A stretch of DNA of 64,000 nt, from positions 1 through 64,000 of the forward strand of contig NC_022575.1 of assembly GCF_000477415.1 (NCBI RefSeq). Reading direction: 5' to 3'. Shown one piece after another: positions 24,465 to 30,677 of the stretch. The first letter of the stretch is position 1; each line of letters opens with the position of its first letter. Source of the DNA: Mycoplasma parvum str. Indiana. GTDB lineage: Bacteria; Bacillota_I; Bacilli_A; Mycoplasmatales; Mycoplasmoidaceae. Below the pieces are notes generated by a model that was given only the letters and a program-made list of their open reading frames with translations, had not been told where the DNA came from and did not search any database. Position numbers and translations under genes: made by a program.

Positions 24465-26999
24465 ATGAACGATACGTCTCCCAGCAAGATTAGTAAAATT
24501 CTGGAAATTATTGCTTCCTCAAAGGTTGAGGAAGGGAATATTACTACTACTTGCGATCAATCATTCCTAAATTATTCCTTATCTGTAATTACTTCTAGAG
24601 CCCTTCCCGATTTACGGGATGGGCTAAAACCAGTTCACAGGAGAATATTATATGCTGCTTATGAAGAAAGATTATTTAATGAGGGTAGATTTAAAAAGTC
24701 TGCAACACTTGTGGGTGCAGTAATGGGATCTTATCATCCTCACGGTGATAAGTCCATTTATGATGCTTTAGTTAGATTAAGTCAAGACTTTAAAATGAGA
24801 TATCCTTTACTAGAAGGTCAAGGGAATTTTGGCTCTATAGATGGAGATGCTCCGGCAGCTATGCGTTATACAGAAGTCAAAATGAGTAAATTAGGGCAAA
24901 AATTCCTGGAAGGAATTAAAGAGGAGTGTGTAGAATTTCTAGATAATTATGATGGCTCTAAAAAAGAGCCATCAGTATTACCTATTATAGCGCCTTCAAT
25001 ACTTCTTAATGGTAGCGAAGGAATTGCGGTTGGTATGGCAACTAAAATTCCTTCGCATAATTTAAAAGAAGTATGCGAGGCTGCAATAGCTTTAATCGAT
25101 AATCCTCAACTAGAGGATGAAAGGTTGATTGATTACATTAAAGGTCCTGATTTTGCAACTGGTTGCGAAATTTTAGGTACTGAAGGCATTAAGAAATATC
25201 TTAAAGAGGGAATTGGGAAGATTTGATTACGGGCTAAAGTGGAATTGAATAAAGAGAAAAATCAATTAATAATTAGAGAGATTCCTTTTGGGATTGTTAA
25301 ATCCAAATTGATTAAAAAAATAGCAACTCTTTCTACTATTGAAAAAAAGTCAAAAGAAAGAAAAAATGCTGTTTTACAACGTTTTATTTTAAATATTAGG
25401 GATGAATCTAACTTAAAGGAGGGAATTAGATTAATTATTCAATGTAGGGAGGGATCCGATTTAAATGCTGTTTTGAATAATTTGTATAAATACACAGCTT
25501 TACAAACACAATATACCTTTAACTTAACATTATTGAATAAGGGAAAACCTGAAAGAATGGGGGTTGGGGGTATTTTACGTAACTATTTAATTTATCAGGT
25601 TGAAGTTTTGAAGAGAAAAACCAACTTCAATTTGAGGAAATTGGAAGAAAGAATTCATCTTCTTGAAGGAAGATGAGTTGTTGTGAATGATTTACAAGAA
25701 GTAATACGCATAATTACAGAAGAAGAATCACCTGAAGAAAAAATAAAAAGTTATTTCAATGATTCTAAGAGAGAGAATAGAATTCTGCTTTCTGAAAAGC
25801 AGATTGATGATATTTTTTCTCTGCCTTTAAGGCAGCTGAAAAAAATAGAAAGGAAAAAATTGAAAGATGAATTAGATGAAAAAAAAGAAAGTAAGGAAGA
25901 ATGCTTGAAGATGTTGAGTAATGAAAAGGAACAGTTTTTAAAGATTAAAAAAGACTTGAAACAATTGATTGGTGAATTTGATAAAGATCGAAGAAAAACT
26001 CAAATCAATGATGAACAGTGTTATAAAATTGGAAAAACTGAATTGATTCCAGAAGAAAACTTAATTATTAAATGTACTTCGGATAATTATATTGGTGCTG
26101 TTTTGCTAAATGAGTATAGGGTGTACAAAGGAGTAAGTAAGGGGGAAGAATCAGAACACAGTGAGGACAGGAAATGGGGAGTTAATTCTGCTGTTTTAGT
26201 TGCTAGCTCTAAGGAAAGCTTGTATATGTTTACTAATTATGGACGGGTTTATAAGATTGAAGCTCATTTGGTTAAGGTAGGAGAAAAGAAGAGATGACCA
26301 AAAAATCCGGAGAAATTAGATAAAAGAGTCAATTTAAAGAAAGGAGAAAAAGTTGTGAAAATTATCACATTTGGGGGAGATGTGGACACTAAAAATAGGA
26401 ATTTATTTTTAGTGTCTAAACGAGGCTATATTAAGAGACTAAAGCTCGAGAATTTGAGATGTATTAGAAAGAATGGTAAACTTGTAAAAAGAATGAAAGA
26501 GGGTGATGAATTGGGGGATGTTACCATTGGAAGAGAGGATGGAATTATAATAATAGTTACTAGGAAGGGGAAAATGATTAAATTTGATACTAAGAAAGTT
26601 AAACTTAGAGGACGGTTGAGTGGAGGGATTAGAGGAATTAGACTCAATCAAAGTGTAACAGATGAAGTTGTTGGAGTAAATGTGGGAAGTAGTTACGGAT
26701 GGGATGTTATTGTAACGAAAAGTGGTCAGATTAAAAAAGTGAAAAGCACACTGATTAAAACGAAGAATCGAGGAGGAAAAGGGATTTGTGTGAGTAGAGT
26801 GGGAGAAGAAATTGCTGCTGCGCTTTGAGTTGATGAAGAAGACTGAACAAAATTCATAGTTGGAACAAAGAACGGAAAAATTGTAAGTGTGGAATGAAGT
26901 AATATTCCGGAACGGAAACAAAGGGTATCGCGAGGGAAAGATGTAATTAAATTAGATAAACGTAAAAGAGATTCAATTGATTTTTGTATTAAGACTTAA
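24465..26999 (+). CDS. gyrA: DNA gyrase subunit A
   Basis: 844 residues. Breakage-reunion domain: RALPDLRDGLKPVHRRIL, HPHGDKSIYDALVRLSQDF, GNFGSIDGDAPAAMRYTE with the active-site Tyr. A six-bladed C-terminal propeller follows (blades at LYMFTNYGRVYKI, LFLVSKRGYIKRL, IIIVTRKGKMIKFD, VIVTKSGQIKKV, FIVGTKNGKIVSV). The QRDR serine (E. coli Ser83) is Lys here (codon 24750-24752). From about 25240 on the codon usage turns G-rich (GGG, GTG, AGG, TTG), unlike the first 770 bp. A second complete propeller lies at 28893. Confidence 0.93.
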
Positions 27000-27322
27000 T
27001 ATTAAGTTTTTGAAAAAAGAGAAATAAAATAAAAATCAGAAAGGTCTGGAAGAGAAATCTCTTCCAGACCTTTCTGATTAATTAATCATTTTGAAAGATC
27101 ACAAAGCGGAAATGTGGGTTTCTAGAAGAAGTGTGTGAATTTTTATCAAAAGAAAATGACATTAAAAAAGAAACAGAGGAACCAATTAGTAATGATACAA
27201 AGGCGTTTTTTAATTTGGATTTTGTTATTTGCATTACAATATATATTATAATAATGAATGAAAGATAATCGAAGGGAAATGTATAATAGAAATAAGAAGA
27301 TAAGCGTTAGAAAAGATTAAAA
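27000..27322. other. Gene-free stretch after gyrA
   Basis: 323 bp without a convincing gene. It holds the long hairpin at 27034-27079 and then G/A-rich DNA in which only very short frames are open (for example a 17-codon ATG frame near 27114). It may contain the promoter of the 27323 gene, but no clear box is visible. Confidence 0.5.
27034..27079. terminator. 21-bp perfect hairpin downstream of gyrBA
   Basis: Left arm 27034-27054 and right arm 27059-27079 are exact complements around the loop AAAT (core AAAGGTCTGGAAGAG). No T-run of length follows, so it could be a transcript end-stabiliser as much as a terminator. Confidence 0.6.
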
Positions 27323-28270
27323 ATGTTACTAAAACACGCTCCTAAGATCGTGTGGGTTTTTGTTCCAGGAGCAGTGGGGGCAGGGGGAACACCTACTATG
27401 TATTATTTTTTTGGAGGAAGAGAAATAAAAGAACTGATTAGAAAATATGGGGAAATTGTAAAATTTGGGGATTTAACAACCCAATCGGGGTGACTCTATA
27501 CCACCCCGATTGGGGTTCACTGGGAAGATATCTGTGAATTTTGAAAGAATCAGAAGGAAAGGGATTCTGGTAGTGAATGTGAAGATATAAGAAAAATGTA
27601 TGAGGAGGGTAAAATTGATACGATATGGGTGGATGGAAGTGGTTTTGAAGAAGGTAGAGAAAGGGATGTAAGTGAGGAAAGGATGCGTACGGTACAAGAG
27701 GAAAATTGAGGGAAGGAAATTAGGTTTGATTTAAATGCAAAAGGAGACGAAACGTTGAATGAAAAATGAAATGGTATAAGAGAAAAAATCAGAAAATATT
27801 TGGGAGAACAAAATGGGCATAATCTAAAAAAAGGAAGGAAATGTTACAAAAGAGACAAAAAGGGAATTGTGTTCAATTGGTTTCAAGGATGAATAAATAG
27901 TTGCATCAGAAGAGAATCAAATGGGGGTAACAAAGAGAGAGTGTTGTTTGAAAAAACAGCTTGATTAATAGCAAGTAATGCAATGTCTATTATGGATTCA
28001 GCTCTAAGGATTAGTTTGACTAAAAATGATCTCGCAATTAGGTTTGTGACAAGGGAAGGAAAGATAAAAGAAATTTTTAGGCTTGGATGGAAAAATGGGA
28101 CAGAACGAGAGACTTGGGATGGACTAGTGGTAAGAGGTGAATGAATTAAAGAATTTGGGTATGCACATAAAAAAAATGACAAAAATTTAAGATGAGGAGA
28201 AAAAGTGAAAACGGGTAAATTTGGTTGGAACCCTGAAAGTGAAGAAAAGAGAAAAATAGCATTTGAGTAA
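27323..28270 (+). CDS. Unknown protein with N-terminal membrane anchor, G-rich gene
   Basis: 315 residues, ATG start, nine UGA-Trp codons. An N-terminal hydrophobic, Gly-rich segment (IVWVFVPGAVGAGGTPTMYYFF) suggests a signal anchor; the rest is hydrophilic, charged and Trp-rich (EKTAWLIASNAMSIMDSALRI; ETWDGLVVRGEWIKEFGY). Anchored proteins of unknown role like this are abundant in haemoplasmas. The gene shares the G-rich composition of the second part of gyrA and contains a perfect inverted repeat (CCAATCGGGGT / ACCCCGATTGG, 27480-27512 region). No family recognised. Confidence 0.65.
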
Positions 28271-28351: not shown

Positions 28352-28747
28352 ATGATTTTTTTTCAAACAGATAGTTTTTCAAAATTTTTAGTTTTTATAT
28401 CTTTATTGTTTATATTTTCGTTTTCATTGAATTACTGGAAAGATTCAAAAGGAATGACTTGAGAAGAATTTTTTCGATGATTGTTTGATACTCTAAAGAA
28501 TAAATGAATTTTGGCTGTTAGAAATTTAATGAGTATTTCTTTTTGAAAAAATTTATGTTTTAGAGTAAAACGTTACTTTAGACGTAAAAGATTTGGTTTT
28601 GGTAGAAGAGGTTTTTCTACTGAGGGAGAGTTTTGTTTGCCTCCTTGGGTTGAAGATGATCTGGATTGTGAAGATGATGAAAAAGATAATGAAGGAGAAG
28701 AAAAGAGTGAAAAAAATGAAGAGCAAGAGTTGAGTACTGAAGAGTAA
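28352..28747 (+). CDS. Small single-span membrane protein with acidic tail
   Basis: 131 residues. One membrane helix at the N terminus (FLVFISLLFIFSFSLNYW), a basic middle (RVKRYFRRKRFGFGRRGF) and an acidic tail (EDDEKDNEGEEKSEKNEEQE). ATG start, five UGA-Trp codons. Unrecognised; basic-after-helix suggests the C-terminal part faces the cytoplasm. Confidence 0.55.
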
Positions 28748-28892
28748 GTAGTTTTTCCTCTTCTAAATTTTTAGAGAGGATTTTTTGCTAATTTATAAAT
28801 GGGGATAAAATTTTGGTTTTTATGGAAAACCAATAGATGATATTTAAAATTATTTAATGTTTTAGATAAAATAATTGATAAAGGATAAGAGT

Positions 28893-29879
28893 ATGTTAGT
28901 TATTTTTACAAAGCTTGAAAAGATATTTTCTATTCCTGAAGAGAAATTTAATATTGGAGAAAGAAAAGGAGAAGGAATTAATTTAAAAAAATATCTCTCA
29001 CAGGGGGATATAGTAAAGGATATTATTCGCACTTCTGAAGAGAGTGATTTATTAATTTTTACTGCTTTTGGGAGAGTTTATAGAATAAATTCGAATAAGG
29101 TTCAAGTATTAAGAAAAGCAAGTAAAAAAGTTGAATTGCAAGATGTTAGAGAATTATTAGATTTGAAAGAACCAGAATTTCCTAGTATTGATAAAGTAGT
29201 GAGAATTATTTCAGCAGATCAAAAAGATTATCAAAATAATCCCTTTGCATTCCTTGGTACAAAAGAGGGTATGGTTAAAAAGATGTTTTTGGGGGAGTTT
29301 CAAAGTGTTAGAAGGTCTGGAGCAAAAATTATTTCATTGAGAGGAGATGATGATTTACTTGATGTGAAAATAATAGGCAAAGATGATGAAATTTTTTTGA
29401 CTTCAACTTCAGGTCATCTTGTTAGGTTTAAGTCTAGTGAAGTTAGGGAAATGGGAAGGGAAGCTATCGGAGTGGAAGGAATTAATTTAAGTAATAAAAA
29501 GGATCTTCCTAATTTTCAAGTTATATCGATTTCTTGTAGAACAGAAGGTGAGGAGATATTTACTTTAACAAGAAAAGGTAAAAGTAAATATACTAAATTG
29601 GATGAGTATAAGTTAACTGGTAGAGGGCGAAAGGGAATGTACGCTTATAAATTTAAAGAAAAAAATGGAGAATTGCTTACTTGTTTTGCTATTTCTGTCT
29701 TTAATACTTCAGAATTTCTTTTTTTGATAACAAGTAGTGGAAAAGTTGTTAGATTAAGAGCAGATGCAATTTCCAGCAGAAAAAATAGAGCTTCAGCTGG
29801 CGTTGGAATTATTAGATTAGACAAGAAAAAGCAAGAAGAGGTAGTTCATTGTTTTAAATATATGGAATTCAAGAAGTAA
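28893..29879 (+). CDS. Free-standing GyrA/ParC C-terminal beta-propeller
   Basis: 328 residues made only of the DNA-wrapping propeller: blade repeats at MLVIFTKLEKIFSI, LLIFTAFGRVYRI, FAFLGTKEGMVKKM, EIFLTSTSGHLVRF, EIFTLTRKGKSKYTKL and FLFLITSSGKVVRL. There is no breakage-reunion domain, no coiled coil and no catalytic Tyr. It starts at ATG 28893 with AAGGA seven bases upstream; TTG 28875 is an alternative. Composition is AT-rich like the rest of the genome, unlike the propeller part of gyrA. It may be the displaced original end of gyrA or a paralogue acting as a DNA-bending protein. Confidence 0.85.
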   Translation: MLVIFTKLEKIFSIPEEKFNIGERKGEGINLKKYLSQGDIVKDIIRTSEESDLLIFTAFGRVYRINSNKVQVLRKASKKVELQDVRELLDLKEPEFPSIDKVVRIISADQKDYQNNPFAFLGTKEGMVKKMFLGEFQSVRRSGAKIISLRGDDDLLDVKIIGKDDEIFLTSTSGHLVRFKSSEVREMGREAIGVEGINLSNKKDLPNFQVISISCRTEGEEIFTLTRKGKSKYTKLDEYKLTGRGRKGMYAYKFKEKNGELLTCFAISVFNTSEFLFLITSSGKVVRLRADAISSRKNRASAGVGIIRLDKKKQEEVVHCFKYMEFKK

Positions 29880-29923: not shown

Positions 29924-30454
29924 ATGTTTTTTCATGATTGAGCTGCTGCTGGAGGAGTTATGGGAGGTGTTATACCTTTTGTTATTGGTTTAGCTTATTA
30001 TATTTGTCAATTCATAATAAAAGCTAAACACGAGGGTTGAAAAAATGTAAGTGTTGAGGAATGGAAGGAGTTTGGTAGAAATATTGAAGGAGGAATAGAA
30101 GGTATTTTGGGGAGTGCCTCTAAAGTTCCTAAAGTAGATTTACATTGCGAGGAATGTAAAAAAAGGGCGGAAGAAATGAATAACTATATAGAAAGTTTGA
30201 ATCAGAAAGTTGAAGCTTTGAGGAGTAAATTGATGAATCACGTTAGCAGTAGAGTTGAATCTACTTTAAATAGGGGTTTAGATCAAAAAACAATGCGGGA
30301 AGAAGAAAAAGATTTAACAGATACAGTTGTTTCGGCGTCTAACGATGGCGATGATACTCAGGACACCATAAATAGCGAAGAATTAGAACAATCAACTACC
30401 ACCGCTCCAGAGGTTTTAGAAGGAGGGGAAATGGAGTCTTTGGGATTAGATTAA
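29924..30454 (+). CDS. Membrane-anchored protein of unknown function
   Basis: 176 residues. N-terminal Gly-rich hydrophobic anchor (AAAGGVMGGVIPFVIGLAYYI), a Cys pair (CEECKKRAEEM), a probable coiled coil (NNYIESLNQKVEALRSKL) and an acidic, Thr/Ser-rich tail (DGDDTQDTINSEELEQSTTT) suggestive of a surface-exposed or low-complexity end. ATG start. Unrecognised. Confidence 0.6.
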
Positions 30455-30487
30455 TTTTTAAAAAATAAAATTTAATTAATTTTTTAT

Positions 30488-30515
30488 AAAAAAGAGGCTT
30501 TAAAGCCTCTTTTTT
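30488..30515 (+). terminator. Intrinsic terminator after the 29924 gene
   Basis: AAAAGAGGCTTT / AAAGCCTCTTTT palindrome followed by a T-run, a strong rho-independent terminator, readable in both directions. Confidence 0.85.
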
Positions 30516-30677
30516 ATTTAAGAAGAGTGGGATTAAGTTATAAAGCCAAATGAGATAATTCTTAATTAAAGTTATTTATTCAAAAAAATTTTATGCTTTT
30601 TTATAAAAATATGATATTAAATAAATGGAAGTTAATAATAAAAAAGAAAAATTTATTTTTAAATTAGAAAAAGTAAT

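Follow-up and report, generated by a model that had tools for sequence, protein, structure and literature searches.

We analysed a window of 64,000 nucleotides from Mycoplasma parvum str. Indiana, a blood mycoplasma of pigs (positions 1 to 64,000 of the forward strand of contig NC_022575.1). The genome of this strain is a single contig of 564,395 bp, which is the published size (PMC3869333). In the window, gyrB is followed by gyrA, and 1,893 bp behind gyrA stands a gene for a free-standing GyrA-type C-terminal propeller (Table 1). An earlier note on this DNA had described a separate 328-residue gene of GyrA blades, about 1.9 kb after a gyrA that has its own propeller. Our results bear out each part of this description: the GyrA profile, the PF03989 blades and a six-bladed AlphaFold2 model agree for the free C-terminal domain (free CTD), and profile and Pfam matches are present for the propeller fused to gyrA.

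Table 1. Features of the gyrase locus of M. parvum (positions in the window)
Feature	Position	Strand	Evidence
gyrB, sole type IIA B subunit of the genome	22504..24462	+	genome Pfam search, profile match
gyrA, 844 aa, sole type IIA A subunit of the genome	24465..26999	+	genome Pfam search, profile match
Fused propeller of gyrA, strongly diverged	26055..26996	+	trees, identities, box alignment, profile scores
GyrA-box position of fused propeller, YKGVSKG, lost	26124..26144	+	alignment
Perfect 22-bp inverted repeat, 2-base loop, directly 3' of gyrA	27034..27079	.	terminator score on minus strand only
315-aa ORF between gyrA and free propeller, no Pfam match	27323..28270	+	ORF list, Pfam search
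131-aa ORF between gyrA and free propeller, no Pfam match	28352..28747	+	ORF list, Pfam search
AAAGGA, Shine-Dalgarno-like, 7 nt 5' of ATG	28880..28885	+	sequence
Separate GyrA-type C-terminal propeller of six blades, 328 aa	28893..29879	+	ORF, profile matches, sequence alignment, AlphaFold2 model, structure comparison
GyrA-box position in blade 1 of free propeller, GERKGEG, degenerate	28956..28976	+	alignment
176-aa ORF, hydrophobic N-terminus; relatives adjoin free propeller or gyrA	29924..30454	+	neighbourhood comparison
Perfect 16-bp inverted repeat then T-rich sequence, terminator-like, 3' of 176-aa ORF	30486..30517	+	sequence

Read with genetic code table 4, the frame 28893-29879 is open and contains zero TGA codons. 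It starts with ATG at 28893, and an in-frame TTG at 28875 offers an alternative upstream start. Five PF03989 blades were found in the protein by Pfam search, the NCBIfam GyrA model matched it over model positions 498-791 of 798 (E 3.7e-57), and the Salmonella GyrA CTD matched it by sequence (E 5.5e-31). The PF00521 breakage-reunion domain with its active-site tyrosine is missing. An open frame arising by chance is ruled out by the six intact orthologues.

The 22-bp inverted repeat behind gyrA may form a boundary between gyrBA and the gene for the free propeller. Its terminator score lies on the minus strand, on which no gene was noted to end there. At 27480-27518, within the 315-aa ORF, a putative gene, lies another GC-rich inverted repeat (CAACCCAATCGGGGTG...CACCCCGATTGGGGTT). 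The region 26000-28000, which covers the gyrA propeller and this ORF, has a strong G-over-C skew (0.52) and a higher GC content than the rest of the window, a feature possibly connected with the rapid divergence of that propeller. The small gene behind the free CTD likely encodes a coiled coil, has no convincing Pfam match, and throughout the genus is conserved as a neighbour of either gyrA or the free CTD.

The AlphaFold2 model of the 328-residue protein (pLDDT 87.5, pTM 0.87) has the six-bladed beta-pinwheel of PF03989 repeats that defines a GyrA CTD, with a closing last strand at residues 317-324. The input alignment consisted of 55 bacterial GyrA CTDs collected by a scan with gyrA N-termini, so the fold serves as a consistency check and gives no independent proof of homology. 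The Salmonella CTD, on the other hand, was matched by sequence, independently of the model. The scan of the collection with gyrA N-termini returned zero haemoplasma loci, and the six free CTDs share no conserved segment of sufficient length for a profile-led scan. Compared with known structures, the model gave Z scores of 35.5, 30.9, 28.6 and about 20 with the CTDs of Salmonella GyrA (crystal structure), Borrelia GyrA (1suu), the Aquifex aeolicus type IIA topoisomerase (3no0) and E. coli ParC, respectively. The Aquifex domain, which was compared by structure alone, is GyrA-like. With the GyrA CTDs of E. coli (1zi0), Salmonella (5ztj) and M. tuberculosis (3uc1) the free CTD shares fold, blade number, GyrA profile and most DNA-contact arginines, but it is not attached to a breakage-reunion domain and its GyrA box is degenerate. 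The ParC and GrlA CTDs (1wp5, 1zvt) belong to the same superfamily and have the same pinwheel fold; however, profile scores and structural Z are lower with them, and parC is missing from the genome.

Arginines of Salmonella GyrA have been tested for their role in DNA wrapping (PMC7210945). Five of them can be aligned with the free CTD: R140, R189, R244 and R299 correspond to R667, R716, R766 and R817 of Salmonella, respectively, and R612 is replaced by lysine. With four of the five retained and the fifth changed to another basic residue, DNA binding by the free CTD is plausible. The net charge of +16 is modestly positive.

Gyrase was the only type IIA topoisomerase found in the M. parvum genome. 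PF00521 and PF00204 matched once each, in gyrA and gyrB, respectively, and a search with these two families for parC and parE found none. The gyrA product scored 729 bits with gyrase and 516 bits with topoisomerase IV models, and the gyrB product 694 and 642 bits. A parC split in pieces elsewhere in the genome was also ruled out by the single PF00521 match. In the family search, PF00521 matched once in every genome of the genus (seven) and of the M. haemofelis group (g5, three), and twice in most other genera; PF00204 was counted in the M. parvum genome. This distribution of PF00521 suggests that topoisomerase IV was likely lost before the CTD was duplicated. The free CTD itself scored 193.8 bits with GyrA models and 81.1 bits with ParC models. 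All six free propellers were matched better by GyrA models, by 59-113 bits, whereas three Mollicute ParC CTDs, used as controls, scored higher with ParC models.

Orthologues of the free CTD were found in five of the six other genomes of the genus (G014, G024, G032, G046 and G039). Neither G004 nor the M. haemofelis group has the gene, and no orphan was noticed in 53 other genomes of the family. Short open frames in group g11 were rejected as free CTDs; in the two genomes checked they were table-11 breaks at TGA, and under table 4 they are whole gyrA genes of 844 and 846 residues. The earlier note had proposed a check of synteny in relatives, and this places most free copies directly behind gyrA. 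The order gyrB, gyrA, free CTD, small gene is found in five of the six genomes with a free CTD, including M. parvum, with one to a few additional ORFs in some species; in G014 the free CTD follows gyrA at a distance of 18 bp. Where the free CTD is missing or relocated, the small gene stands directly 3' of gyrA. In G039 the free CTD lies elsewhere in the genome (L083 6918-7967), and its start is uncertain because no upstream ATG, GTG or TTG would take in blade 1. The GyrA box of this relocated copy, the best preserved of those compared, sits in that same blade 1. This relocation, together with the hairpin and the two genes between gyrA and the free CTD in M. parvum, makes production apart from gyrA possible. 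With the gene missing from G004, at least one lineage can do without it.

In a tree without ParC, the six free CTDs formed one clade (95/96), which was nested with the fused CTDs of the genus, both together excluding the M. haemofelis group (99/99). The fused CTD of M. parvum grouped with that of G014 (91/81). When ParC was included, it formed its own clade (100/99). These trees are limited by long branches: constraining the free CTDs with ParC was not rejected (p-AU 0.25), a fused clade of genus and g5 without the free CTDs gave p-AU 0.068, and the clade of free CTDs was not recovered from blades 4-6 only. Behind blade 2, several copies of the genus, free as well as fused, share a short insert (LLxxxxxxFxxxE-like). 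This insert is missing from g5, other Mollicutes and the fused copy of M. parvum. The retention of fused CTDs in place in all seven genomes, the separate clade of the free copies and the joint exclusion of g5 argue for duplication rather than replacement. The best reading of these sequences is thus that the free CTD arose by an old tandem duplication of the gyrA CTD inside the genus, a placement which is supported, though not formally decisive. The phylogeny of both propellers, another check proposed in the earlier note, accordingly gave a GyrA-type domain nested with the fused CTDs of its genus, and left a grouping with ParC unrejected.

Both GyrA boxes of M. parvum are poor when compared with the consensus Q(R/K)RGG(R/K)G (PMC3510516). 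All fused propellers of the genus have an eroded box. The best-preserved boxes are those of the free copies in G039 and G046 (AKRGGKG and TKRGRVG, respectively); the free copies of G024 and G032 have lost it, and there the fused copy is better kept. The free propeller scored higher than the fused one on the GyrA model in M. parvum (194 vs. 139 bits) and in G014 (165 vs. 152.5 bits). Of 52 conserved GyrA-CTD columns, M. parvum keeps 34 in the free and 26 in the fused propeller, the latter being the more degraded of the two; in the other species, except G046, the fused copy keeps at least as many as the free one. In G046, gyrA (L084 4360-7332) encodes blades 1 to part of 4, after which come about 273 residues of unrelated sequence. 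The blades that would complete this propeller form the C-terminus of a different ORF (L084 8169-9200), again behind unrelated sequence, and the free CTD is whole. A tree of the detached blades 4-6 singled out neither fused nor free copies as their source.

Both propellers change faster than the GyrA N-terminus. Between M. parvum and G014, its nearest orthologue for the free CTD, identity is 69% for the gyrA N-terminus, 31% for the fused CTD and 39% for the free CTD; the corresponding values for G024 and G032 are 86, 72 and 45%. Under neutral drift, about 7 stops would be expected in the frame after 0.2 substitutions per site, and 16 after 0.8; none was observed in six species. In four of four pairs of free CTDs pN was lower than pS, a result from which the strength of constraint cannot be stated because synonymous sites are close to saturation.

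Taken as a whole, the product of the free gene is probably a second protein that bends DNA, or one that assists gyrase. Our preferred reading, to which we give a probability of about 0.5, is that it encodes a paralogue of the GyrA CTD, produced by tandem duplication, whose free beta-pinwheel most likely acts on DNA alone, binding it and bending or wrapping it, as the Gac protein of Borrelia does. The 3' third of gyrA would have been duplicated in tandem in an ancestor of this haemoplasma genus that had already parted from the M. haemofelis group and lost topoisomerase IV. The duplicate would have kept an open frame in six species, and its pinwheel would wrap and compact DNA alongside the single gyrase. 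A genus without topoisomerase IV might profit from a GyrA that wraps less, and the free propeller could then return wrapping, alone or with gyrase. We modestly prefer action on DNA alone because the gene is a separate unit in M. parvum, has changed place in G039, does not occur in G004 and, in two species, has lost the box on which wrapping by gyrase depends. Against our preferred reading stand the degenerate box, the fast evolution, the loss in G004, the modest net charge and the open placement tests. Replacement of HU by the free CTD was rejected, since two adjacent HU genes are present in M. parvum (contig 236869-237467); the free CTD thus fills no obvious HU gap. HU was found in all seven genomes of the genus, most of which also have the adjacent HU-type pair.

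The next candidate, possible though clearly less probable, is that the free propeller acts in trans as the wrapping subunit of gyrase. It would join the GyrA/GyrB core or its DNA to give negative supercoiling, and GyrA with its degraded propeller would relax and decatenate, so that one core would do the work of gyrase and topoisomerase IV. The single type IIA enzyme of the genome and the erosion of the fused boxes, complete in M. parvum, are consistent with this mode. In B. subtilis gyrase, loss of the box stopped supercoiling and spared relaxation and decatenation (PMC3510516), and E. coli gyrase with weaker wrapping was a better decatenase by about 10-fold (PMC7038939). The pairs within single genomes point the same way in G046, where the fused propeller is broken inside blade 4 and the free one is complete, and in G039, where a free AKRGGKG stands against a fused RNRGTTG; the 18-bp spacing in G014 also fits. 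Supercoiling by the N-terminal fragment of E. coli GyrA was reportedly regained when the CTD was supplied as a fragment of its own (Reece and Maxwell, 1991). However, the free copies of G024 and G032 have no box beside a better-kept fused one, G004 survives with the fused copy alone, and in M. parvum neither box is good. A split-off wrapping module, in which the fused propeller would drift toward a topoisomerase IV-like state with weak wrapping and decatenation and the free propeller would provide chiral wrapping in trans, the core switching between supercoiling and decatenation, is a more speculative proposal still. The trans-gyrase mode is the more interesting of the two modes.

It is unlikely that the free CTD is a decaying duplicate with no present function. 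Its fast divergence, the loss of the box in two orthologues and of the gene in G004, and the G039 copy with no usual start before blade 1 would fit decay, but the six intact frames, the ordered predicted fold and the lower pN are contrary to it, as is the better conservation of the free copy (34 of 52 columns) than of the propeller of the same-genome gyrA. The suggestion of the earlier note that the gene could be the original gyrA end, stranded when another CTD displaced it, has very little probability: the higher scores of the free propeller on the GyrA model in M. parvum and G014 would agree with it, but it is contradicted by the fused copies standing in place in all species, that of M. parvum grouping with that of G014, and by the separate clade of the free copies. 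The alternative offered in that note, a second DNA-wrapping protein, fits the sequences. Least probable of all is a ParC remnant left by the loss of topoisomerase IV, the origin against which the earlier note had weighed its proposal, since the absence of parC and parE and the unrejected topology are opposed by the GyrA preference of all six copies with its reversal in the ParC controls, by the position next to gyrA, by the separate ParC clade, by the lack of a parC N-terminal gene in the genome, and by our seeing no relative with the same gene as the end of parC.

Gac of Borrelia burgdorferi is a free GyrA CTD which bends DNA by 180-220 degrees, partly complements HU and has been called NAP-like (PMC10127594). 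Like the M. parvum protein, it is a free six-bladed GyrA CTD beside a full-length GyrA, with the same fold and a degenerate GyrA box. Unlike it, Gac is made from an internal promoter within gyrA and therefore has the sequence of the fused CTD, whereas the free CTD of M. parvum is a separate, diverged gene kept across the genus, in which the fused CTD diverges on its own. The activity of Gac has been shown; the M. parvum protein is predicted from its gene, a separate intact one with a ribosome-binding site. The Gac paper leaves open whether a free GyrA propeller is unique to Borrelia (PMC10127594). The M. parvum genome paper and the M. haemofelis paper make no mention of gyrase or topoisomerase, a comparison of haemoplasmas mentions gyrase once, in passing, and we found no haemoplasma proteome in the literature that names the free propeller protein.

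Free GyrA propellers are already known from Borrelia. In M. parvum and its relatives the propeller is encoded by a gene in its own right, which has been retained in a genus of blood parasites with minimal genomes and no topoisomerase IV. The paired free and fused propellers decay in different species, the fused one in M. parvum and G046 and the free one in G024 and G032. Such pairs offer a natural experiment in which the influence of DNA wrapping on the balance of supercoiling and decatenation can be followed. If the idea of a split-off module is true, the same catalytic core could switch between supercoiling and decatenation.
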